From: Turicibacter faecis
GTDB lineage: Bacteria; Bacillota_I; Bacilli_A; MOL361; Turicibacteraceae
NCBI RefSeq assembly: GCF_037076425.1
Contig: NZ_AP028127.1
Coordinates: forward strand, 650,001 to 714,000
DNA: 64,000 nt
Reading direction: 5' to 3'
A program made the position numbers and the translations under genes. The notes under the pieces are model-generated. The model worked only from the letters and a program-made list of their open reading frames with translations, ran no database searches and was not told the DNA's origin. Shown piece after piece: positions 2,709 to 16,379 of this stretch. Every line of letters starts with the position of its first letter. Positions within the stretch are counted from its first letter, which is position 1.

Positions 2709-3149
2709 GTGGTGATGACGAAGATGATTGAAGTGTTTTCGCATGAAGTGGTAGTTCCAGTAGCGGGAATGACATTGGTTGTCTTTTTGATGGTGTGCGA
2801 CATTCTGAGTGGAATTTTCAAAGCTGTGGCGATGCGGCGGGGAATTAATTCCACGATTGGAACGAACGGCCTGATTCGAAAGGCGGGGGTGCTACTGGCG
2901 TTACTTGTCTTCATTGTGATTGATTCTTTGGTCGAATTGAATTTGGTGACGATGATCCCAACCGATTTACTGTCTATTTTCAAACTTGAAGAAACCCAAA
3001 TCGGATTAAGCCATATGATGTTATGCTTTTTTGGGTTATTCGAGTTGGTTAGTTTGTTTGAAAATCTAGGTGAGGTCGGGGTACCTTTACCACGCTTTAT
3101 AAGTAAATTTATTGAACGATTACGAATCACATTGGAGGGGGAAGAGTAA
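2709..3149 (+). CDS. Phage holin, toxin-secretion/phage lysis holin family (phage_holin_4)
   Basis: A 146-residue membrane protein with three to four hydrophobic segments (about 15-32, 55-75, 95-115) separated by short basic loops, including the family-like stretch CDILSGIFKAV near residue 28. Holins of this type permeabilise the cytoplasmic membrane to release the endolysin. The start is uncertain: GTG at 2709 is 8 nt from AGGAGGT (2694-2700); ATG at 2715 is the alternative. The stop overlaps the ATG of the amidase (TAATGA), a tight lysis cassette. No other structural phage genes are visible, so the pair is a prophage remnant or the end of one. Confidence 0.8.
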   Translation: MVMTKMIEVFSHEVVVPVAGMTLVVFLMVCDILSGIFKAVAMRRGINSTIGTNGLIRKAGVLLALLVFIVIDSLVELNLVTMIPTDLLSIFKLEETQIGLSHMMLCFFGLFELVSLFENLGEVGVPLPRFISKFIERLRITLEGEE

Positions 3150-3916
3150 TGACCTATACATTTAGAAAGCAACTCGTTTCAAAAGATAAATATTCTTTAA
3201 AATGCCCGTACGCGATGACGGTGGAGTATATTACCGTGCATGATACCGCGAATCGGGCGAGTGCGGAAAATGAGATTAAGTATATGACGACGAATAATTT
3301 AGAAGTTTCCTATCATCTTGCCGTTGATGAGGAGCAAGTCATTCAGGGACTTCCATTTAATCGCAATAGTTGGTCATGTGGGGATGGTTCCAATGGTCTT
3401 GGAAACCGGAAGGGCATTAGTGTAGAGATTTGTCGTCCGCTACATGAAGATGGCTTTCTATATGAGCAGGCTGAGGAAAATGCGGTCTATGTGGTGGCGA
3501 GACTGTTGCATCAGTTTGGGTTGCCGATTGAACGCCTGAAAAAGCATCAGGATTGGAGCGGGAAGATGTGCCCGAATCGAATTTTGACCAACCATAAATG
3601 GGAAAATTTTAGATACCGTGTCCAGTGGGTGCTTGATGAAATCAAAAAAGGGAATATTGAAGCCCCACTCGAAGCGGGAACAACCGCCCTTAAACAAAAT
3701 GCAAGCCCCGCTCCTGCAACAGAAACATTCCTAGTAGAAATCATCTGCGACTCGCTTAACATCAGAGAGAAAGCTGATTTTAACTCTAAAATCGTCGGAA
3801 CTGTTACACGTGGAGAAGTCTTTACGATTATTGAAGAGGAAAACGGACTCGGCAAGTTAAAGTCAGGTGCGGGTTACATCAGCATGAATAGTAAGTACGT
3901 CAAAAAGAGAGCCTAA
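3149..3916 (+). CDS. N-acetylmuramoyl-L-alanine amidase with SH3 domain (phage endolysin)
   Basis: A 255-residue endolysin. Residues about 20-150 form an Amidase_2 (PGRP-like) domain: zinc ligand His in VHDTAN (about 31), substrate-loop YHLAVDE (about 55) and the C-terminal metal-site motif KHQDWSGKMCPNRI (about 130-143) with its His and Cys. After a Pro/Ala linker, residues about 195-252 form a bacterial SH3 domain (SLNIREKADFNSKIVGTVTRG) expected to bind cell wall. It cleaves the amide bond between MurNAc and the stem peptide. It is translationally coupled to the holin. No signal peptide is present, so release depends on the holin. Confidence 0.9.
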   Translation: MTYTFRKQLVSKDKYSLKCPYAMTVEYITVHDTANRASAENEIKYMTTNNLEVSYHLAVDEEQVIQGLPFNRNSWSCGDGSNGLGNRKGISVEICRPLHEDGFLYEQAEENAVYVVARLLHQFGLPIERLKKHQDWSGKMCPNRILTNHKWENFRYRVQWVLDEIKKGNIEAPLEAGTTALKQNASPAPATETFLVEIICDSLNIREKADFNSKIVGTVTRGEVFTIIEEENGLGKLKSGAGYISMNSKYVKKRA

Positions 3917-4792: not shown

Positions 4793-5258
4793 CCCGCTAC
4801 AAGTATTGCCACTAGATCTAGCAGACAGTAGTGCTATTCCTTACGCGGGTGGTGTTTGTTAAACAAGGAAACCTCATTTATAAACATAGTCTATTTCTCT
4901 TAACCCAAACGAGCGATTTCTAACCATTCCACCAGTGTCAAACTACCGTTTTCCTTTGGGGTGGTCTTGTTAGAACGCTACCTAGAAGCGGGAATCTCAT
5001 GGATAGGCTAATCATGTTTACACATCCTTAGCCTTTTCTTATGGAATGCCTCCCGCTACAATCAAGAACTGAACTAACCATCAATCCATAGACGCCCGAC
5101 AACGTAGGGGCGTGTGGGCTTGTTGGTTAGTTTTTATGTTTAAGGAAGATGCCTTCCAGTAGAAAGAAAATCCCCTCAATCGTTGCGTGGCACTCGCAAC
5201 AGTTGAAGGGATTAATTTTAATATAGGGATGAATAGTTCGCCTAGGCGATCTATTCAT
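4793..5258 (+). repeat. Structured non-coding repeat module, copy A
   Basis: Ordered hairpins: an outer helix CCCGCT (4793-4798)/AGCGGG (4987-4992) enclosing a hairpin at 4912-4979 (AGCG, CTAAC, CCACC pairing); an AGGCTAA hairpin with T-tail (5005-5034); a second CCCGCT at 5052; the AACTAACCA/TGGTTAGTT hairpin with inner GACGCCC/GGGCGTG and T-tail (5072-5135); a GGAAG...CTTCC hairpin (5144-5157); AATCCC..TCAA/TTGA..GGGATT (5169-5213); and ATGAATAG/CTATTCAT with GTTCGCC/GGCGATC inside (5229-5258). The same order recurs near 11.3-12.0 and 13.0-13.3 kb. No protein-coding frame explains the conservation. Confidence 0.85.
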
Positions 5259-5447
5259 TTGGTGTTGTGAAGTTGACGGTTCTTTTATAAGAAGGGAGTA
5301 CCATCTGCTCTTTTAAAATATAAGAGAAAATAAAAAAGGAAATTGTATCAATTATGCGTATTGTTATATGAGGTGATTAAAAGATGTTCCCTTAAATGCT
5401 ATATATATGATATAATTATGCTATACACTTACAAAGGAGGTTGTCTT

Positions 5448-5662: not shown

Positions 5663-6667
5663 ATGAACGTGATTAGTCTATTTAGTGGTTGCGGTGGTTT
5701 AGATCTTGGGTTTGAAAAAGCAGGATTTAAAATTCCAGTTGCAAATGAATTTGATAAAAAGATTTGGGAAACATTTAAGGTGAATCATCCCAATACTAAA
5801 TTAATTGAAGGTGACATAAGAAAGGTTAGCAAGAAAGACATTGAACAATATTTTGATGGAGATGTTGATGGCATTATAGGAGGACCACCTTGTCAATCAT
5901 GGTCAGAAGCTGGATCATTAAAGGGGATTGAAGATGATAGGGGACAATTATTTTTTGATTATATTAGACTTTTAAAGGAGTTTAGTCCGAAATTCTTTTT
6001 AGCAGAGAATGTTAGCGGTATGTTGGCTAATAGACATTCGACGGCTGTTCAGAATATCATGAAGATGTTCGATGACTCAGGGTACGATGTCACTTTAACA
6101 TTAGTTAATGCTAAGGATTATGGAGTAGCTCAGGAAAGAAAGCGAGTGTTTTATATTGGTTTTAGAAAAGATTTGGGGATTAATTTCGAGTTTCCAAAAG
6201 GATCAACAGAGGATGACGAAAAGAAGATTACATTAAGGGATATAATTTGGGATTTACAAGAGACCGCGGTACCTGCCGGACCTAAGAATCGTCGAAATCC
6301 AGAGGCGATTAATAATAATGAATATTTTACGGGATCATATTCTACAATTTTCATGAGTCGAAACCGGGTAAAGTCTTGGGATGAACAAGCTTTTACGGTA
6401 CAGGCATCTGGACGCCAGTGCCAACTACATCCTCAAGCTCCTAAAATGGTTAAGTTCGGTAAAAACGATCATAGATTTGAGGAAGGAAAAGAAGAGTTGT
6501 ACCGTAGAATGACAATCAGAGAGGTTGCAAGAGTTCAAGGATTCCCAGATGACTTTAAGTTTATATATGAAGAAACAAACAATGCGTATAAGATGATTGG
6601 GAATGCGGTTCCTGTTAATCTTGCTTATGAAATAGCATTGGGTATAAAAAAATCACTAGAATGTTAG
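5663..6667 (+). CDS. DNA cytosine-5 methyltransferase, M.HaeIII-like (predicted GGCC)
   Basis: A 334-residue C5 methyltransferase with all key motifs: I ([17 protein letters not shown], residues 5-21), IV (GGPPCQSWS, catalytic Cys, about 75), VI (ENVSGM), VIII ([12 protein letters not shown]) and X ([13 protein letters not shown] near the end). The variable region is strikingly close to my memory of M.Hae[34 protein letters not shown] and the GSLKGI loop after motif IV. This suggests methylation of the internal C of GGCC; specificity is inferred from similarity. It follows the HTH gene at once (ribosome site GGAGG) and converges on the putative restriction gene. Confidence 0.95.
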
Positions 6668-6674
6668 TATAAAA

Positions 6675-6712
6675 TAAAGACACCTGATCTATAGATTCAG
6701 GTGTCAAGTTTT
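6675..6712. terminator. Bidirectional terminator between convergent R-M genes
   Basis: GACACCTGA (6679-6687) pairs with TCAGGTGTC (6697-6705) and is flanked by A- and T-rich runs. It serves the methyltransferase (+) and the gene on the other strand. Confidence 0.85.
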
Positions 6713-7611
6713 TATTCGTAGATAATAGTTGTATCCTTTACATTATTATCGTTTATATCATCTGTTGTTTTAATATTAAGTTGATCTAAAGAGTCTTTAA
6801 GGTTTTTAGCTGCTTCATGACCACCATATACAAGAGGTGTTTCAAAGCATAGTTTGTGTGCCAGTTTTCCGTTTTCTACGCACCATTTTACATAAACTGC
6901 TAATGGTCGGTTTCCATCATATTTTTGACGAAAAGTCCTGTAATTTAATGCCTTGCATGCGAAGTAGACCTTAGGGTGTTGGATGACGTAATCATCGATT
7001 GTGATTAAGGCGTTAACTGCGTCCTGTACATTGTTTATTGGCGCATCTTCAAATAAAATAAAATTAGCAATACCGCTAGCAGGGATTAATTTCCCATTAA
7101 CGAGCGCATCTCTTTTTTCAATGGATAAGTTCTTTCCAGCATACACATCAACTATTTGGTCATGCGTTAATGATATATCACTACTTAATTCACCACTTTG
7201 TTTGTTTAAAAGTTCAAACTTCCAGCCAAGAGTAATAGCACCGGCTTCAGTCCTTTTGAATTTTGTTTTATAAATGAGTGGTCTTTCCTTAAAATTTGTA
7301 CGTAGGTTCTCGGTTGCAGTTGAAATAATATTACTCCAATTGTCTCCAAAGAGTTGGGCTGCGCGCTCAGCGTTCGTTTTGTTTTCTAAAAAATCAGCAT
7401 TTTGCTTTTTGAAAGAAATTTTAAACTCCATTCGTTTAGCTGTCATAGTATCTTGTGCTTCAATATAAATATCTGTTTTAGGTTCTCCCTTCTTGCATGT
7501 AGGTTTTCCTGATAAGGTTACTTCGTATTGATTATCGTTATACTCAAAAGTTATTCCTGGTTGAAACATATTTAGTATATTTTTTTCACTTTCACCAAAT
7601 GTTTTTGCCAC
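6712..7611 (-). CDS. Putative type II restriction endonuclease, PD-(D/E)XK type
   Basis: About 300 residues, convergent with the HaeIII-like methyltransferase. A candidate PD-(D/E)XK core lies near residues 45-70: KTDIYIEA followed by MEFKISFKK (Asp ... Glu-x-Lys). I do not recognise it as a close relative of HaeIII, BsuRI or NgoPII endonucleases, so its pairing with the methyltransferase rests on position and the motif. An ATG at 7620 directly abuts its GAGGAG ribosome site with no spacer; GTG at 7611 has a normal 9-nt spacing and is my preferred start. Alternatives: a methylation-dependent or solitary nuclease. Confidence 0.65.
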   Translation of the reverse strand: MAKTFGESEKNILNMFQPGITFEYNDNQYEVTLSGKPTCKKGEPKTDIYIEAQDTMTAKRMEFKISFKKQNADFLENKTNAERAAQLFGDNWSNIISTATENLRTNFKERPLIYKTKFKRTEAGAITLGWKFELLNKQSGELSSDISLTHDQIVDVYAGKNLSIEKRDALVNGKLIPASGIANFILFEDAPINNVQDAVNALITIDDYVIQHPKVYFACKALNYRTFRQKYDGNRPLAVYVKWCVENGKLAHKLCFETPLVYGGHEAAKNLKDSLDQLNIKTTDDINDNNVKDTTIIYE

Positions 7612-7883
7612 AATTTTCATCTCCTCTATTTTACTGAAATAGCATCTAATATCTATGCGCTACTTTGTGATGGATCTTTAAAAGCTTTTTTCTATGCACC
7701 GTTTCCTTTCTTTGAAATATAGATAATCTGTGATCTATCCTTTAATATAGGATTCTCGGTGGAAAACAGACACTACTTATTTTAGTTTGTATTTACTAAT
7801 AATAAAAGTAAATTAATGAAAAAGCATCATTTTGTCGAAAAAAGATATATTTTAATTCTCATATTTAAGGTAAGGTGAATCAT

Positions 7884-8330
7884 TTGAATTTAAATAGAAC
7901 ATTAACAGCGACGGTATACGTTATTTATCAAAATAAAGTTTTGCTACATCTTCATAAAAAACATAAGTCATTGTTTCCGGTAGGGGGACATATGTTGCCT
8001 GATGAATTGCCCCACGAAACGGCAATTAGGGAAGTCTATGAGGAATCAGGGTTAAGGGTAACTTTGATTGATGATCAAAAGAAATTAGGTATGACGAGAG
8101 TAAGTCAGTTGAATAATCCTAGATATACGCTTTTAGAGAATATTGGTAAGGAAGTAGAGAATATCGATTTTATTTATTTTGCGATAGCTGAGTCAGATCG
8201 TGTTAAGCCCCAGAAGGGAGAAAGTCGGGATTTATATTGGCTTTCGAGGGAAGAAATCTTAAATAGTTCGGATATGAAAGAACATATTAAAATTATGGCA
8301 TTAGAGGCATTAACAGCGGTAAAGTGTTAA
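7884..8330 (+). CDS. NUDIX hydrolase
   Basis: About 148 residues with a complete NUDIX box (GHMLPDELPHETAIREVYEE plus SGL), fitting GX5EX7REUXEEXGU. The enzyme should hydrolyse a nucleoside diphosphate linked to another group; the substrate is unknown. TTG at 7884 is favoured as start because AAGGTGA (7872-7878) is 5 nt upstream; GTG at 7875 is the alternative. It lies between the two methyltransferase modules, in the same direction as the second, 88 nt before it. NUDIX genes occur in some defence islands, but there is no direct evidence for a defence role. Confidence 0.85.
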   Translation: MNLNRTLTATVYVIYQNKVLLHLHKKHKSLFPVGGHMLPDELPHETAIREVYEESGLRVTLIDDQKKLGMTRVSQLNNPRYTLLENIGKEVENIDFIYFAIAESDRVKPQKGESRDLYWLSREEILNSSDMKEHIKIMALEALTAVKC

Positions 8331-8418
8331 TTTTATAGGGTGCTGTAACTGAAAAGAGGAAATCTTAAAAAGTTTTTAAACGAACAATACGTAAGAGAAA
8401 AAAGGAGGAGTGATAAGT

Positions 8419-9480
8419 TTGACTGTTTCAGTTGTGGATTTATTTTGTGGTATAGGGGGACTAACTAAAGGATTAGAATTTGCAGGATTAGACGTCATCG
8501 CTGGAGTGGACATAGATGAAACTTGTCGCTATGCCTATGAAATGAACAATAAATCTAAATTTATTCAAGGAGATGTTAGTTCTGTAGATGTTAATCAAAT
8601 AAAGGAGTTATATTCAAAAGGTTCGGTACGTGTATTAGTAGGGTGCGCACCCTGCCAGCCATTTTCGAAGTATACCCAAAGGTATCGTAAAGAAGGGCAT
8701 AAGGATGAGAAATGGAAGCTATTGTATGCGTTTGCTAATATTATTAAGGGTGTAAAACCGGAGGTAATATCAATGGAAAACGTTCCTGAATTAGCTAAGG
8801 AAGCTGTTTTTTCGGATTTTTTGAGTTTTTTAACCGACGAAGGTTATCGTTTTTCTTGGAAAATTGTGTATTGTCCGGACTATGGAGTTCCACAGAAACG
8901 AAAGCGGTTAGTTTTACTCGCTTCCCTTCTAGGTGATATTGAATTAATTCCGCCTTTATATGAGAAAGAAGAGTACTTAACGGTAAGAGATGCTATTGGA
9001 GATCTTCCTGTATTAAAAAATGGAGGACAAGATAGGGAGGATAGTATTCATTGTGTTACCAAACTATCGCAGATCAATTTAAAACGCATTCAGCAATCAA
9101 TTCCGGGAGGAACATGGCTGGATTGGGATGAGGATTTACGACTACCATGCCATAAAAAAAGTACAGGAAAAAGCTATGGAGCTGTTTATGGTAGAATGGC
9201 TTGGAATGAACCATCTCCTACTATAACAACTCAATTTTATGGATATGGTAATGGGCGATTTGGACACCCTGAGCAAGATAGGGCACTTTCATATCGCGAA
9301 GGTGCAATTTTACAATCCTTTCCGAAAGATTATAAGTTTATAGGGGAAGAGGAGAGTTTTAATAGAAGAAAGTTGGGCATACATATAGGTAATGCTGTTC
9401 CAGTTGAGTTAGGGCGAGCTATTGGGTTGAGTATTTTAAAACATTTGAAAGAGATGGGAGTGGGACTAAGTGAAGAATAA
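8419..9480 (+). CDS. DNA cytosine-5 methyltransferase (second, orphan specificity)
   Basis: About 353 residues. Motif I DLFCGIGGLTKGLEFAG, motif IV GCAPCQPFSKY (catalytic Cys, about 78), motif VI ENVPEL, motif VIII QKRKRLVLLAS and motif X GNAVPVELGRAIG are present. It differs clearly from the HaeIII-like enzyme in motif I and in the target-recognition region, so a different target is expected, which I cannot predict. TTG 8419 is the likely start: AAGGAGGAGTGA ends 5 nt before it, while GTG 8410 is too close. It overlaps the DUF262 gene by 11 nt, so methyltransferase, DUF262 and HEPN genes are translationally coupled. Confidence 0.93.
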   Translation: MTVSVVDLFCGIGGLTKGLEFAGLDVIAGVDIDETCRYAYEMNNKSKFIQGDVSSVDVNQIKELYSKGSVRVLVGCAPCQPFSKYTQRYRKEGHKDEKWKLLYAFANIIKGVKPEVISMENVPELAKEAVFSDFLSFLTDEGYRFSWKIVYCPDYGVPQKRKRLVLLASLLGDIELIPPLYEKEEYLTVRDAIGDLPVLKNGGQDREDSIHCVTKLSQINLKRIQQSIPGGTWLDWDEDLRLPCHKKSTGKSYGAVYGRMAWNEPSPTITTQFYGYGNGRFGHPEQDRALSYREGAILQSFPKDYKFIGEEESFNRRKLGIHIGNAVPVELGRAIGLSILKHLKEMGVGLSEE

Positions 9481-10525
9481 AATTACAGAGGAGCAGAAGG
9501 AAAAGGCTAATGCACAAATTAGAGAATTACGTAAAGAGATTGATTATGATACCAGGGACTATTCAATTGATTTTCTAGTAAAGCAATTTGGAGAAAATGA
9601 ATTTTTTATACCTGACGAGTATCAACGACAATTTGTTTGGGAAAATCAACACAAAACAGATTTTATTGAGTCAATTTTATTGGGGTTACCTATCCCGTTT
9701 ATGTTTTTTTCAGACACAGATGATGGAAGATGTGAAATTATTGATGGTGCTCAAAGGACTAGAACTTTGGATACGTTCATGGAGAATAACTTGGTATTAA
9801 AAAATTTGAAGCTATTAACAAGTTTAGAAAATTTCACTTATGAGGATTTACCTGATTATTTCAAACGGAAATTTAATAAAACTACAATGAGGATCATTGT
9901 TTTATCAGATGAAACCACGTTAGAGACTAGAAGAGAAATATTTAATCGTATTAATACTGCTGGGGTTCGCGCGAATAAAAGTGAGGTTCGACGCGGAACC
10001 TATTCGGGTCCTTTTATGGATTTTCTTAAGGAGTGTACTAAAAATGAATTATTCATTAGTGTATGCCCCGTAAGTGATAACGGAAAGAAACGTTATGAGG
10101 ACTTAGAGTTAGTATTAAGATTTTTTGCCTTTTTGAACAATTACCAATCGTTTAATCATCGAGTAGGTGAATTTTTAGATAATTATGTTGAACGGGTACA
10201 GGATAGCTTTAATAAAGATGAATTAACAAGAGAGTTTCTTAATATGTTGAGATTTGTAGATAAATATTTTGAGTTTGGGTTTAGAAAAACCAAAAAGGCG
10301 AAATCTACTCCTCGAGTTCGTTTTGAAGCTATTTCTGTAGGTGTAGCATTGGCATTAAGAGCGAAACCCGACCTGGTCCCAGCTTCGATGGATTGGCTGG
10401 ATAGTGAGGAGTTTAAGAAACATACAACAACTCATGCGAGTAATTCCCAGGCGAGAGTAAGAGGACGAATTGAATTTGTAAGAGATATGTTATTAGCGGG
10501 GGATAATGATGCAGGAGACTATTGA
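9470..10525 (+). CDS. DUF262-domain protein (ParB-like NTPase/nuclease fold)
   Basis: About 351 residues. The N-terminal DUF262 (GmrSD N-domain-like) shows FIPDEYQRQFVWENQHKTDF (residues 44-64), PIPFMFF, the signature DGAQRTRTL (about 92-100) and NRINTAGVRANKSEVRRG (about 160-177). DUF262 is the domain that pairs with a nuclease in GmrSD and SspE-like anti-phage enzymes, using nucleotide hydrolysis. The usual C-terminal HNH domain (DUF1524) is absent: after residue 180 there is only a helical region, so nuclease activity may come from the partner HEPN protein. It starts with GTG inside the methyltransferase stop region and overlaps the HEPN gene by 20 nt. Confidence 0.9.
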   Translation: MKNKITEEQKEKANAQIRELRKEIDYDTRDYSIDFLVKQFGENEFFIPDEYQRQFVWENQHKTDFIESILLGLPIPFMFFSDTDDGRCEIIDGAQRTRTLDTFMENNLVLKNLKLLTSLENFTYEDLPDYFKRKFNKTTMRIIVLSDETTLETRREIFNRINTAGVRANKSEVRRGTYSGPFMDFLKECTKNELFISVCPVSDNGKKRYEDLELVLRFFAFLNNYQSFNHRVGEFLDNYVERVQDSFNKDELTREFLNMLRFVDKYFEFGFRKTKKAKSTPRVRFEAISVGVALALRAKPDLVPASMDWLDSEEFKKHTTTHASNSQARVRGRIEFVRDMLLAGDNDAGDY

Positions 10526-11195
10526 TATGTTTAATGACCGAGTCGAGGAAATAAAGCTATATTATTCCGCATTAGAAAAATTGTATGATTTTAAGGAAAT
10601 AGAAGAAGAAAATCAAGATTTTCTAAAGGATGATTTTTTAAAGATCTTAAAATCTAATGCATTGTTGATGGTCTATAACCTTGTAGAGTCCACTATTATG
10701 GGGGGGATATTAGAGATATATGAAAATTTACACCAAAAGGGTATGACATATAAGATGGTTCGGAAAGAAATACAAGAGATTTGGTTTTCCTATAAATTCA
10801 ATCAGGTTTATGCTAAAAATGCCCATTTTAATTCATATAAAGGGAAAGCGATGGAGATAATTAATTTTATTTTAGAAGAAACACCCTTAGAACTTGATAG
10901 AAAGGCAACGGATATAAGTGGAAATTTAGATGCAGATAAAATAAGGCAAATATGTCAAGAACACGGAATTGTATATAATTTAGATAAAGATAGTCGAGGA
11001 GGAATTATTCTTAAAGATGTTAAGGATAAGAGAAATAACCTTGCACATGGGACGATTTCATTTGTCGAGTGTGGGCGTGATTATAGCATGGATGATTTAG
11101 ATAAAATAAAGCGAGAAACTATTTCCTTTTTGAATAGTATTCTAGAAGGAATGCAAAATTATTACGATAATGAGTTATATCTTTCATCAAGATAA
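10506..11195 (+). CDS. HEPN-domain protein, MAE_28990/MAE_18760-like putative RNase
   Basis: A 229-residue all-helical protein. The C-terminal part carries RNNLAHG (about residue 179), the Rx4-6H catalytic motif of HEPN ribonucleases, and the N-terminal helix DMFNDRVEEIKLYY plus LVESTIMGGILEIYE match what I recall of the MAE_28990 family. Such proteins are described with DUF262 proteins and DNA modification genes in predicted defence operons. It is coupled to DUF262 by a 20-nt overlap. Expected role: an RNA- or tRNA-cleaving effector unleashed when the methyltransferase/DUF262 sensor detects unmodified or foreign DNA; this is inference. Confidence 0.85.
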   Translation: MMQETIDMFNDRVEEIKLYYSALEKLYDFKEIEEENQDFLKDDFLKILKSNALLMVYNLVESTIMGGILEIYENLHQKGMTYKMVRKEIQEIWFSYKFNQVYAKNAHFNSYKGKAMEIINFILEETPLELDRKATDISGNLDADKIRQICQEHGIVYNLDKDSRGGIILKDVKDKRNNLAHGTISFVECGRDYSMDDLDKIKRETISFLNSILEGMQNYYDNELYLSSR

Positions 11196-11324
11196 AGGAT
11201 ATTGCGTTTAATTTTAAGGGTAATTTATCTTTAATAGATCCATCTTATCTCAAGAAATGATTCTTTTTCATTTCACTTAAATAATAAAAGGCCTTGCAAT
11301 GTGATGTTTAGATAATCATCAGAT

Positions 11325-11526
11325 CCCGCTACAATCAAGAACCGAACTAACCATCAATCCATAGACGCCCTACACGGTAGGGGCGCGTGGGATTGTTGGT
11401 TAGTTTTTTTTGTTGAAGGAAGGTGCCTACCATTAGAACGAAAAATCCCCTCAATAGTTGCGATTCAACAGTTGAGGGGATTGGTTTTTAATAGGGGATG
11501 AATAGTTCGCGCGGCGATCTATTCAT
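11325..11526 (+). repeat. Structured non-coding repeat module, copy B
   Basis: CCCGCT (11325-11330), then the AACTAACCA/TGGTTAGTT hairpin with inner GACGCCC/GGGCG and T-tail (11345-11412), a degraded GGAAGGTGCC hairpin, AATCCCCTCAA/TTGAGGGGATT (11444-11482) and ATGAATAG/CTATTCAT (11498-11526). The apical stem of the second hairpin is shorter than in copies A and D but still pairs (GTTG/CAAC), so length changed while pairing was kept. It closes the block of defence genes that copy A opens. Confidence 0.85.
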
Positions 11527-11574
11527 TTTGTGTTATAGGAAGGTGTCTTTGGAAAGGTAGACCTTTTATCAAAG

Positions 11575-12037
11575 CGGTCTTTAATAAAGAATGGCTACAA
11601 GATCTATCAGACACGGATGTGATTTGTTATAGGGATTGGTTCGTTAAACAGGACTTTCCTCATTTATAAACCTAGTCTCATTCTCTTAACCCCACCAAGC
11701 GATTCCTAACCATTCCACTAAATCGCCAGCAGGCTCTCGAAGGTGTCATGGTTAAATCGCTAAACTGGAATAAGTATAGATATGGATAGGCTAATCATGC
11801 ATTCGCATCATTAGCCTTTTCTTATTGGATTTATCCCGCTACAATCAAAATAGAACTAACCATCAATCCATAGACGCCCGACAAGGTAGGGCGTGTGGGC
11901 TTGTTGGTTAGTTTTTATGTTGAAGGAAGGTACCTTCCAGAAGCGGGAAAAGAAAATCCCCTCAACTGTTGGAATCAACTATTGAGGGGATTAAGTTGTA
12001 ATAGGGAGAGGAATAGTTCGCCAAGCGATCTATTCCT
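11575..12037 (+). repeat. Structured non-coding repeat module, copy C
   Basis: This copy repeats the long form seen at 4793-5258. It has the segment with shared GTTAAAC, TCATTTATAAAC and CTCTTAACCC blocks (11641-11695), hairpin AGCGATT/AATCGCT (11699-11762), AGGCTAATcATGC/GCATcATTAGCCT with T-tail (11788-11820), CCCGCT/AGCGGG (11835-11840/11942-11947) enclosing AACTAACCA/TGGTTAGTT (11854-11913) and the perfect palindrome GGAAGGTACCTTCC (11925-11938), AATCCCCTCAA/TTGAGGGGATT (11955-11992), and AGGAATAG/CTATTCCT (12009-12037). Several stems show compensatory changes relative to copy A. Confidence 0.85.
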
Positions 12038-12184
12038 TTTATGTTATAGGATGATGACTTTTGGTGATAGGGATTGGAGAAGATAGGCGTTATACAGTGG
12101 GGTTTTGTATCTAAAAAGGATTTAAATCTTTTTATAAAGTAGGATTGATATGTTCATCTGATTTAAAAGTTGGGAATGATAGGA

Positions 12185-12190
12185 TATAAT
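12185..12190 (+). promoter_or_regulatory. Candidate -10 box of the EVE-HNH gene
   Basis: A TATAAT hexamer 30 nt upstream of the coding region. The -35 (TTTAAA, 12162-12167) is weak. Confidence 0.4.
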
Positions 12191-12220
12191 ATTAGATGTT
12201 AGTTAGGATAGGGAGTGAGG

Positions 12221-13003
12221 ATGATGCAGTGGATTATTCCATGTGATTTAAATTATTATGACGCGATAAGTGCCTTTTCTAGTTTAAAAACGCTAGATTG
12301 GCGACAAAATAACCGGTATGTTGTAGGGGATACTGTGTTTATTTATGCTTCGGCGCCCTATCAAAAAATTATGTTTAAAACGAAAGTTTTAGCAGTAGAT
12401 CTCATGTACGAGGATACGATTGATGATTTTACTTTTTGGAAAGTACCAGTTGATGAACGGGAGAAAGAGCAAAGGAAATCACGTCGATATGTAAGGTTAC
12501 AATTAATTAAGTTTTTGGAATGTGACGATTTAGGGCTAGAATCTCTACTGAAGCAAGGTTTAAAAAAAGCACCACAAGGTGCGGTAAAGTGTCAGAATGA
12601 TAAACTTCAATTAGGTGAATATATTGAGAAATGTTTTGCTCAGGATACTCTGGATGATAAATCGAATGTGATTGAAGAGGATAATTATTACGAAGGAAAT
12701 AGTATTGAGGTTCAACTTAATAGGTATGAGCGTAGTGTTGAGGCAAGAGAGAAGTGTATTGAATTTCATGGATGCCATTGTAAGATTTGTGGGTTTGATT
12801 TTGAAGAAGTGTATGGAGATGCAGGAAGGGGATTTATTCATGTTCACCATATTGTTCCAATATCAGAAGTCAAGGAAGAATATTCGGTAAATTATAAAAA
12901 GGACTTAATCCCGGTTTGTCCAAATTGTCATGCAATCATTCATAGAAGAAAAAAACCGTATACTGTTCAAGAAGTCAAGCAACTACTACAAAATAGAAAG
13001 TAG
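12221..13003 (+). CDS. EVE-HNH modification-dependent restriction endonuclease (predicted)
   Basis: About 260 residues. The N-terminal ~140 residues resemble an EVE/PUA-like domain (MQWIIPCDLNYYDAISAF; later YVVGDTVFIYASAPYQKIMF), which in this architecture binds modified cytosine. The C-terminus is an HNH domain of McrA type: CKICGFDF, HVHHIVPIS, and DLIPVCPNCHAIIH, with four zinc-binding Cys and the catalytic His pair. EVE-HNH proteins are type IV-like enzymes that cut DNA with modified C. Starts at 12221 or 12224 fit the GGGAG ribosome site better than GTG 12215. It stands alone between repeat copies C and D, as a separate cassette. Confidence 0.88.
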   Translation: MMQWIIPCDLNYYDAISAFSSLKTLDWRQNNRYVVGDTVFIYASAPYQKIMFKTKVLAVDLMYEDTIDDFTFWKVPVDEREKEQRKSRRYVRLQLIKFLECDDLGLESLLKQGLKKAPQGAVKCQNDKLQLGEYIEKCFAQDTLDDKSNVIEEDNYYEGNSIEVQLNRYERSVEAREKCIEFHGCHCKICGFDFEEVYGDAGRGFIHVHHIVPISEVKEEYSVNYKKDLIPVCPNCHAIIHRRKKPYTVQEVKQLLQNRK

Positions 13004-13013
13004 GTGTTTGGAT

Positions 13014-13277
13014 AGGCTAATCATGTTTACACATCATTAGCCTTTTCTTATGGGAATAATCCCGCTACAATTAAGAACTAAACGAACCATCAATCCATAG
13101 ACGCCCTACGTGGTAGGGGCGTGTGGGCTTGTTGGTTAGTTTTTTTATGTCGAAAAAAGATGCATTCCAGTAGCGGGAAAAGAAAAATCCCCTCAATAGT
13201 TGCATGGCACTAGCAACAGTTGAGGGGATTAATCAATATTTTTAAAAGGGAGGAATAGAACGCTTGGCGATCTATTC
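13014..13277 (+). repeat. Structured non-coding repeat module, copy D
   Basis: It begins 11 nt after the EVE-HNH stop. AGGCTAAT/ATTAGCCT with T-tail (13014-13046, probable terminator of the gene), CCCGCT/AGCGGG (13061-13066/13172-13177) enclosing AACgAACCA/TGGTTAGTT (13081-13141) and T-tail, AATCCCCTCAA/TTGAGGGGATT with apical GTTGC/GCAAC (13186-13230), and GAATAG/CTATTC with inner CGC/GCG (13253-13277). Confidence 0.85.
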
Positions 13278-13385
13278 ATTTTGTGTTATAGCGGGAGGGC
13301 TTTGGTGATAGGGATTTTAATGAAATTTTGAATTATCAATGATTAGAGTATTTCAAGTAATCATCTGTATCTTTTAACAACAAAA

Positions 13386-13422
13386 ATACCAGACATCTAA
13401 TTTGGGAGAGGATGTCTGGTAT
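13386..13422. terminator. Hairpin, possible terminator
   Basis: ATACCAGACATC (13386-13397) pairs perfectly with GATGTCTGGTAT (13411-13422); A-rich 5' flank, no strong T-tract 3'. It could terminate minus-strand transcription. Confidence 0.4.
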
Positions 13423-13590: not shown

Positions 13591-13797
13591 ATGAATGATA
13601 TTTATGATCGCCGATTATCGATTTATTTGAACGTGGGGCTTGATGATGATGGGAAGGATATTATCAAGGCGAAGACGTTTTCTAATGTTCGCTTGGACAC
13701 AACGGACGAGGAGTTAACAGAGTTTGCACAAAAGTATGTCGCTTTATCATCAGGAGCGAACACGAAAAATGTAGTCGCTGACTACCGTATGCTTTAA
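13591..13797 (+). CDS. DUF1659-family small protein
   Basis: A 68-residue protein (LSIYLNVGLDDDGKDIIKAK, TFSNVRLDTTDEEL) typical of DUF1659. It is followed after 20 nt by a DUF2922 protein; the two families are commonly paired in Firmicutes. Function unknown. A possible promoter (TTGAAT 13537, TATAAT 13562, 19-nt spacer) precedes it. Confidence 0.8.
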   Translation: MNDIYDRRLSIYLNVGLDDDGKDIIKAKTFSNVRLDTTDEELTEFAQKYVALSSGANTKNVVADYRML

Positions 13798-13817: not shown

Positions 13818-14060
13818 ATGGCTATGGAAGAAACGTATACATTAACTTGTAAATTTAAAGACACAGAAAATAAGACTCGTACGATTGAGGTGAACAATCC
13901 AACTGCGAACTTGACGAATGACAAGATTTTGGATTTCATGAATCACGTCATCGACAGCAACGTGTTAGTCTTGAATGAACTAGATCCGAACTTAAAGTTC
14001 GCCAAAATTGATGGCGCGTATCTCACAACTAAAACAGTTGAAGATATTACTTTAGTTTAG
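13818..14060 (+). CDS. DUF2922-family small protein
   Basis: An 80-residue protein (YTLTCKFKDTENKTRTIEV near the N-terminus) of the DUF2922 type, in an operon with the DUF1659 gene. Strong ribosome site GAAGGGGG. No signal peptide or membrane segment. Function unknown. Confidence 0.8.
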   Translation: MAMEETYTLTCKFKDTENKTRTIEVNNPTANLTNDKILDFMNHVIDSNVLVLNELDPNLKFAKIDGAYLTTKTVEDITLV

Positions 14061-14909: not shown

Positions 14910-16379
14910 GTGATGGAAAGACATATTTTAAGAAAGTTTTACTTTCCCTACGCGATTGATTTTATTAAAAAATGGAAAGGCGTAAAAAATTTTGGTTGTT
15001 CTTGGGATGGCTTTAAAGGAACAGAAGAAAATAGAGCTGAATTAGAAGAAATAAAAGCGCTTATGCCTGAGAATTCCTCACTTCATAAAGAAATACTACA
15101 ACTTATTTCTAGAGAGGTGCTAAAAGGGAAGAAAAAGAATGAGACAATTGGTTATGATACGTTGGTTCAATGGATACTAGGTTTTATCGTAGAAATTGAT
15201 CAGAACTTAGCCAAAAATCGCATGCGGGCATCTCTAGAAATAGAGACGGAATTAGTACGTATAAAGGAAGATATTTTACAAGGAAAATTTTTAAATGAAA
15301 ATTATTTAGCCCAATTTCCCCCAGTAGCTAGCACTTCTCCTGTTAGAAGATTCGCTTTATATAAATTAGACGAAGATGAAGCTTTTAAAGGAGTAGATTG
15401 TGATGTTTCTTTAGCCGCTATCGTAACCTACGCCTTAATGCATGAGTGGCTAATTTATCCTACTATTCAAAAACAAAAGGGATACGCTAGAAAGTATGAA
15501 ATAAAAAATGGAAGCGGGACTATTTATAAAGGAGATACGATGACATCAGCAGAGATCTTCTTTAAGAAATATCTAACTTGCTTATGGTTCGCCAAATTTG
15601 CTTCAGATGCTTCAGGTGTTTCAGATACTTCAGATGTTTCAGATACTTCAGATGTTTCAGATGCTTCAGACGATTCAGATGTTTCAGATGCTTCAGATAA
15701 GGAATTTCAATCCCTTTTTGAACGACATGGTAATGCAATTAAAGTTCCAGATGATAAAGATAGCAAGAGGTATGGAGGGTTAAAAGATTATTTATACGAT
15801 CAAATTATCTCAAATGAGGAGTTTTTAGAAATAATAGAAGGTAGAATAAGTAAGGAAGCAAGAGCCTTTTTAGATAACTATCATAAACCGGGTAATATGA
15901 TAATTTGCCCCAAAAAATTTAATAAAGAACGAGCAGGTTATCAAGCAAGATATGACACCGTCGATCGAATGCTTTGGGCCATCTATAATTATTTTCAAAC
16001 TAAAGAAAAACAATATTTAGAAAAGTTATTTAGGAAAGTCGAGGGCAATGATTTAGAAACATCAATAAAAAATTTTGAAAAATGGATGGATGAGGCTAAT
16101 ATTACGAAGTGGTCTGATTTTGTTGGAGATAATTTATTAGATGATTTTGTTGAGAAGGGGACTCAAATACCTATTTCGATGAAAACGGGTAAACCCATCG
16201 AAGATTCAGAAGATTATGATCCAATGCCAAAGAGTCTAGATGAATTTGAAAAATTCTTTTCTAATTTAAATCAAAAAATTAAGGCACGTACTAAAAGAAT
16301 TTATACAGAAATAAAAGACGATGACGAAAAAAAAGAAGATTACAAATTAACGAATGAATCTGAAAATCATTGTGAATGA
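14910..16379 (+). CDS. Unrecognised protein with Ser-Asp repeat linker
   Basis: A 489-residue soluble protein, no signal peptide or membrane segment. GTG 14910 lies 8 nt from AAAAGGAG; ATG 14913 is the alternative. Residues 1-230 are helical. Residues 231-263 are eleven three-residue units of the form x-Ser-Asp, encoded by a 9-nt tandem repeat (15600-15698), likely a flexible acidic linker. Residues 264-489 hold GNMIICPKKFNKER, YDTVDRMLWAIYNYF and an acidic/basic tail. I do not recognise a family. AT-rich codon use and the position between duplicated terminators suggest accessory origin. Its length class and cytosolic look would fit a defence or abortive-infection gene, but nothing shows this. 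Confidence 0.75.
   Translation: MMERHILRKFYFPYAIDFIKKWKGVKNFGCSWDGFKGTEENRAELEEIKALMPENSSLHKEILQLISREVLKGKKKNETIGYDTLVQWILGFIVEIDQNLAKNRMRASLEIETELVRIKEDILQGKFLNENYLAQFPPVASTSPVRRFALYKLDEDEAFKGVDCDVSLAAIVTYALMHEWLIYPTIQKQKGYARKYEIKNGSGTIYKGDTMTSAEIFFKKYLTCLWFAKFASDASGVSDTSDVSDTSDVSDASDDSDVSDASDKEFQSLFERHGNAIKVPDDKDSKRYGGLKDYLYDQIISNEEFLEIIEGRISKEARAFLDNYHKPGNMIICPKKFNKERAGYQARYDTVDRMLWAIYNYFQTKEKQYLEKLFRKVEGNDLETSIKNFEKWMDEANITKWSDFVGDNLLDDFVEKGTQIPISMKTGKPIEDSEDYDPMPKSLDEFEKFFSNLNQKIKARTKRIYTEIKDDDEKKEDYKLTNESENHCE

Follow-up and report, generated by a model that had tools for sequence, protein, structure and literature searches.

VcaM4I and the PcaRCI/PcaRCII pair of Pectobacterium carotovorum are among the described systems closest to the locus discussed here. 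According to the accessible part of the report on VcaM4I (PMC7897488), this enzyme flips 5mC or 5hmC and cuts 5hmC DNA faster than 5mC DNA, its binding is only moderately specific, and the authors anticipate very little or no influence of sequence context on its EVE domain. In the Pectobacterium case, the available part of the report (PMC8989522) describes a conflict between PcaRCI and PcaRCII that is settled by M.PcaI, which methylates the PcaRCII promoter, and one intact promoter methylation site was essential for PcaRCII repression. Among the papers listed by the literature searches made, no title or abstract opening dealt with the present EVE-HNH subfamily or with a combination of M.HaeIII and an EVE-HNH enzyme.

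The locus is part of a stretch of 64,000 nt of Turicibacter faecis (GCF_037076425.1, contig NZ_AP028127.1, 650,001-714,000, forward strand), which we call the window, and coordinates are those of the window unless otherwise given. Its own genome (G000) and four other genomes of the genus (G001 to G004, of which G002 is 85% complete) were used for comparison. The nuclease gene lies on the forward strand at 12215-13003, an open reading frame of 262 aa counted from GTG 12215 (12221-13003 in a preliminary description of this DNA), and translation probably starts at ATG 12224, because the closer relatives begin with M-[QKE]-W. Numbered from the GTG, the protein would consist of an EVE domain (about aa 4-142), a low-confidence linker (145-171) and an HNH domain (about 172-262). 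The HNH part matched PF01844 in Pfam (E=2.4e-7), the C-terminal part aligned to the HNH domain of EcoKMcrA as the nearest among solved structures in the PDB search, and the nuclease gave a weak match (6.4e-5) to PADLOC mREase_IV. Residues H211, H212, N237, H239 and H243 were invariant in five of five full-length proteins, as were Cys 189, 192, 235 and 238; the alignment (A1) omits the 95% identical second copy, a protein that exactly duplicates another row, and one near-duplicate. The catalytic residues appear intact as far as the sequence tells. Degeneration of the HNH or pocket residues, named in the preliminary description as a finding that would undo its claim, does not seem to apply, because the HNH residues are invariant, W29 and W74 are mostly Trp across the rows and an intact second copy is present.

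The gene is an orphan, forming its own cassette with no dedicated methyltransferase, and its second copy adjoins different genes. The related-locus search with the nuclease found one locus among the genome contigs and none among the viral contigs, and searches with other queries found 3, 4 and 79 viral loci, 76 of the 79 rows matching only from query residue 119 onward. Matches at E<=1e-12 were present in 13 of 395 genomes of the class, and the full-length match was in the window's own genome only.

The assignment of the N-terminal domain to EVE rather than to another PUA-like family is supported by an AlphaFold2 (AF2) model and by profile comparison, and it remains a prediction from these. 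Pfam found nothing in the N-terminal part of the nuclease, even at E<=10, and among 12 aligned family rows of this domain, one matched PF01878 (EVE) at 1.3e-3 and one matched ASCH at 0.069. The model was made from a 15-row alignment of the window and fetched loci (A4, with 12 rows of A3 and two longer-form rows), A3 itself (25 rows) having been dropped for misaligned rows. Its mean pLDDT was 84, with 82-98 in the blocks of the N-domain, and comparison with solved structures gave the modelled N-terminal part a PUA-like fold. VIA-align placed the model near 2ar1 (EVE; Z 12.1, 129 aligned, 3.1 Å), 2gbs (EVE; Z 11.5, 127 aligned, 4.2 Å), 5guq (ASCH; Z 11.4, 133 aligned, 3.2 Å), 5j3e (THYN1; Z 11.0, 128 aligned, 3.4 Å) and 2eve (EVE; Z 10.8, 122 aligned, 3.1 Å), and the ranges of 10.8-12.1 for EVE, 10.9-11.4 for ASCH and about 10 for YTH are a near tie. 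Foldseek placed ASCH structures in all of its eight top rows (E 1.4e-5 to 3.4e-5); the highest-ranking EVE structure was 2g2x (3.6e-4). The EVE label of 2ar1, 2eve, 2g2x and 2gbs comes from their match to the EVE profile, and 1zce is presumably an EVE structure as well.

Profile comparison by hhalign gave a probability of 97.0% to six EVE domains over 122 columns (E 1.7e-10 as a single comparison), and a second run with a different reference row gave 96.4%. The ten ASCH proteins reached 0.2%, and each of two reversed controls 0.1%. This comparison covers EVE and ASCH only, and its split is one of sequence kinship and not of fold, because the ASCH set comprises a single group of proteins from Bacilli, which scores 0.0% against the EVE set too. 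We considered whether EVE had been a mere guess in the preliminary description and rejected this: Pfam misses the domain, and ASCH leads when Foldseek is taken by itself, but the fold and profile comparisons back the assignment. Together with the Pfam match of the HNH part, the EVE-HNH architecture proposed there is borne out. Relatives of the N-domain, read by eye, are fused to McrB-type ATPase, MmcQ/YjbR-like, GIY-YIG and HNH_2 parts, and the available part of PMC7641849 reports such kinds of fusion for defence EVE domains. In the phylum sample, Pfam EVE matched 4 of the 295 genomes.

The pocket positions look kept by alignment. W29 falls at the position of the pocket residue Trp26 of PSPTO5229 in both the EVE-profile alignment and hhalign, and 11 of the 12 family rows have Trp there. 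By the same two alignments, F73/W74 fall at the position of PSPTO5229 Tyr82 and VcaM4I Trp82, and the Trp of W74 is shared by 7 of the 12 rows; the accessible part of the VcaM4I report (PMC7897488) notes that Trp82 replaces Tyr82 of PSPTO5229. In the same source, the change of VcaM4I Tyr130 to alanine impaired all three assays. In the profile alignment, which is poor at that end, Val124 seems to fall near this Tyr130, and the pocket may, by a weak inference, differ from that of VcaM4I there. VcaM4I itself had no match in the sequence searches and was not among the best 50 rows of each fold search, which excludes no family.

The presence of two C5 methyltransferases in the nuclease's island, also proposed in the preliminary description, was confirmed by PF00145 matches and complete motifs. 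The first, M1 (5663-6667, forward strand), matched PF00145 at 2.2e-103 and M.HaeIII at 9.7e-137, aligning with M.HaeIII over residues 1-331 of 334 with the target-recognition region included, and from this likeness it is confidently expected to methylate GGCC (GG5mCC). The second, M2 (8410-9480, forward strand), matched PF00145 at 1.9e-59. Both carry the FxGxG, PCQ, ENV, QxRxR and GNA motifs, and the idea that M2 is decayed was rejected on their presence. M1 and M2 are the only PF00145 proteins of the window's genome; elsewhere in the genus, matches were found in G001 and G004 and none in G002 and G003. Convergent to M1 lies a member of a type II restriction-enzyme family (6712-7620, reverse strand; PADLOC REase_II PDLC03438, E=6.6e-62), for which Pfam gave nothing at 1e-3 and the PDB search nothing credible, and its product is presumed to be the partner of M1. 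A NUDIX hydrolase gene follows at 7875-8330, and M2 is followed by a GmrSD_N (DUF262) protein at 9470-10525 (also NsnA/PD-T4-2_A-like in PADLOC) and a MAE_28990-like HEPN protein at 10506-11195, all three on the forward strand and identified by Pfam. The C5 methyltransferase, DUF262 and HEPN genes appear as one unit at 8410-11195, and the same three kinds of genes adjoin each other on a Klebsiella plasmid.

The combination was also looked for outside Turicibacter. PF00145 was found in two of the six other records with a full-length in-frame relative of the nuclease, a Psychrobacillus plasmid and a viral contig, both Pfam-confirmed. The six are four plasmids and two viral contigs, which may be fragments; two of them (L074 and L087) carry near-identical proteins, the chromosomes of the plasmid hosts lie outside the count, and the Klebsiella record is left out for its broken frame. 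The statistics are weak, but since the pairing was seen in two of the six, it is not a one-off. On one viral contig (L079:1870-5780), the EVE-HNH gene follows two genes judged by eye to be McrB and McrC, and two modification-dependent systems would then be stacked there.

A mobile element carries this island as its cargo. The element encodes two serine recombinases, a rolling-circle-type Rep and a repressor-like protein, together with a phage-type holin (2709-3149) and an amidase (3149-3916), the last two identified by Pfam on the forward strand. A DUF1659 gene (13591-13797) and a DUF2922 gene (13818-14060), also on the forward strand and from Pfam, form a pair; similar pairs, judged by eye, are present at the cargo edges of related elements, and one is annotated on the Psychrobacillus plasmid. 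The same chromosome harbors a sister element at 2.00-2.02 Mb, whose recombinase, Rep and amidase are 47-62%, 88% and 49% identical to those of the window element, and G004 has a related element (Rep 74%, amidase 46% identical). The mobilizable plasmid NZ_CP031224.1 carries DUF1659, DUF2922, YvrJ, SSB and amidase genes, recalling the content of the chromosomal elements and hinting at one element family with a plasmid and an integrated form. Tandem units of 9 nt at 15581-15717, within the open reading frame 14910-16379, encode a short repeat.

Between the cargo genes lie direct repeats, each about 280 nt long and all in the same orientation on the forward strand: copy A (4999-5290), copy B (11291-11558), copy C (11782-12072) and copy D (13007-13313). 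Copies C and D are the left and right borders of the nuclease cassette, and D begins just past the stop codon of the nuclease, so the mapped coordinates agree with the preliminary description, which had placed the gene as a separate cassette between these two. Copy D had at least 15 matches in the whole genome at E<=0.001, all in the loci of the window element and its sister (40 of 47 candidates scored). Repeat loci lie at 2000955-2015832 of G000, at 93.7-103.7 kb and 445-464 kb of G004 and at 646-714 kb of G001. Four of the five genomes of the genus matched, mostly over the first 43 nt, and a profile found longer partial matches in G004 and G001; full copies are in the window's genome and parts in three of the four others. 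Neither the plasmid nor the phage collection yielded the repeat in blastn searches. Five copies give a consensus fold made up of hairpins in a row (-75.7 kcal/mol; 85 pairs, of which 5 show a compensated change), and covariation gives this fold no support because its term is unfavourable (+4.7). The repeats look like insulating terminators and may also serve as recombination borders. Such hairpin-bounded cassettes are a more unusual part of this locus than the nuclease.

The second nuclease copy is on the sister element at 2.00 Mb, encodes an intact protein of 95% identity and is likewise flanked by a repeat on either side; its neighbours are an Eco57I-type methylase and a PLD-SNF2 helicase. 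These neighbours and a GIY-YIG nuclease further in lie at 2002690-2009621 of G000 (L020:12691-19622) and L021:3648-4475. The two copies differ at 23 nt (dN 0.019, dS 0.074), and the dN/dS of 0.26 rests on these 23 differences without a significance test. Between the cassettes, the nuclease reading frame is 97.1% identical (766/789), the spacer 91.0% (122/134) and the flanking repeats 88.9% (263/296) and 79.5% (240/302). A reading frame closer than its flanking repeats fits either cassette exchange by recombination in the repeats or slower change of the gene.

The nuclease upstream region (12086-12214, forward strand) holds a sigma-70-like pair, TTTAAA-17-TATAAT, at 12162-12190 in a pattern scan; by itself, this pair is no evidence, because the region has 37 such sites against 33.8 in shuffles. 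There is no GGCC, CCGG, GCGC, GATC, CCWGG, GCNGC or AGCT in 12086-12230, which has one CG (12088), and no GGCC in 11294-13400, a stretch that takes in the whole cassette. The window has 49 GGCC. In the host, GGCC is mildly depleted (77 seen against 101 expected, ratio 0.76), which is closest to G003 (0.81) among the genus ratios, the others being 0.50 in G001 and 0.38 in G004, and the window's genome does not stand out in the counts of GGCC and other palindromes. GATC was below expectation in all six sets counted from stretches of G000, G001, G003 and G004, with 178 against 283 expected in the chromosomal stretches of G000.

Our preferred reading, to which we give a probability of about one half, is that an orphan type IV nuclease tolerates sparse 5mC and attacks phage DNA that is more heavily or differently modified. 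The EVE domain would flip out and read the modified base, the HNH domain would cut the DNA near it, and the nuclease would be kept on sister mobile elements as a self-contained cassette. If M1, M2 and the nuclease are all expressed, as we assume, coexistence would be possible because what the nuclease effectively attacks would not be the ordinary 5mC that M1 and M2 place thinly along the DNA. Most likely it would need a modification that is bulkier or far denser, for instance 5hmC over a whole phage genome, or else a different modified base; the host has few GGCC, a fully cytosine-replaced phage would have the modified base at every cytosine, and the host would be spared. We infer modification-dependent cutting with a preference for dense or different modification. 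Such tolerance is not a family property, because VcaM4I binds and cuts 5mC DNA. The mild GGCC depletion of the host speaks against this preferred reading, since it would also fit a recent arrival of M1, with a compatibility untried by time. It is possible though rather unlikely, and we put it forward tentatively, that the pocket of this EVE-HNH subfamily has moved off 5mC and reads another phage modification, which would make it compatible with C5 restriction-modification cassettes, and that the elements make use of this and shuffle mutually compatible defence cassettes via the ~280-nt multi-hairpin repeats; the basis for such a pocket would be a conserved D-W-[RK]-Q strand and no VcaM4I-like Tyr lid.

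The preliminary description had explained the coexistence by another modification or by an excluded context. Both belong among the explanations, but promoter silencing, a threshold of modification density and recent assembly were left out. A nuclease that reads 5mC only in flanks that neither methyltransferase produces would never meet the host DNA as a substrate; modification-dependent enzymes with sequence context exist according to the available part of PMC12707154, and this is compatible with the presence of C5 methyltransferases. We consider it rather unlikely, as the VcaM4I authors' expectation on context (PMC7897488) is against it, and one reader would have to avoid both GGCC and the M2 site and, in the relatives, the sites of their own C5 enzymes. 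The cassettes may instead have been joined lately via their shared repeats, leaving the conflict unresolved or tolerated at low expression. The nuclease cassette in two sister elements with Rep proteins of 88% identity, the reading frame more alike than its flanking repeats and GGCC that is not unusually depleted in the host stretches counted all favour such a history; coexistence in two other records does not, and we judge it unlikely. Still more doubtful is that the nuclease or a methyltransferase is unexpressed or inactive, for instance through promoter methylation of the kind by which M.PcaI acts on PcaRCII. The Pectobacterium precedent is direct (PMC8989522, as far as its accessible part goes), but the two copies of the nuclease gene and the genes for M1 and M2 are all intact, and M1 cannot silence the nuclease at its promoter because no GGCC is there or in the cassette. 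Promoter silencing by M1 was rejected on this ground, which bears on M1 only and not on M2.

The claim of the preliminary description that the enzyme should cut DNA with modified cytosine stands for the EVE-HNH architecture; the target itself is not established by it, given the near tie of EVE, ASCH and YTH and a Val124 that seems to take the Tyr130 position. Its further statement that coexistence restricts the specificity would require every one of the partners to be expressed. The paradox is also softer than it looks, because a known remedy exists and the pairing recurs. The compatibility of such nucleases with C5 methyltransferases decides which defence genes can share one cell, and Turicibacter offers a natural possible clash with one expected site (GGCC) and with promoter silencing by M1 struck out. 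A clean answer on specificity would tell what this EVE subfamily reads.

Compared with the known systems, the nuclease is, by its sequence and model, a further member of the known EVE-HNH modification-dependent restriction endonucleases. It shares with VcaM4I (PDB 6YEX, 6YJB, 6YKF, 6YMG; PMC7897488) the EVE-linker-HNH order, a similar size and, as it seems from alignment, aromatics at the pocket positions. It appears to keep a Trp at the PSPTO5229 Trp26 position that VcaM4I does not conserve, and its HNH domain matched EcoKMcrA, not VcaM4I, in the PDB search. As with PcaRCI/PcaRCII, one genome houses an HNH modification-dependent nuclease along with a C5 methyltransferase. The N-terminus of PcaRCII, however, resembles a helical DNA-binding domain, whereas the sensor of the Turicibacter nuclease is predicted to be EVE, and PcaRCII is silenced at its promoter, whereas the promoter region of the Turicibacter nuclease is free of the M1 site GGCC. 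In the HaeIII system, M1 has a relative in M.HaeIII, and for the convergent nuclease at 6712-7620 our searches brought up no evident link with R.HaeIII. The EVE-HNH protein of the Psychrobacillus glaciei plasmid NZ_CP031224.1 is related over 93% of the length at 46% identity. This plasmid differs in having a BglII-type nuclease, and a search of the plasmid collection for the ~280-nt repeat found none, but it carries a C5 methyltransferase, DUF1659, DUF2922 and an amidase as in the Turicibacter element.
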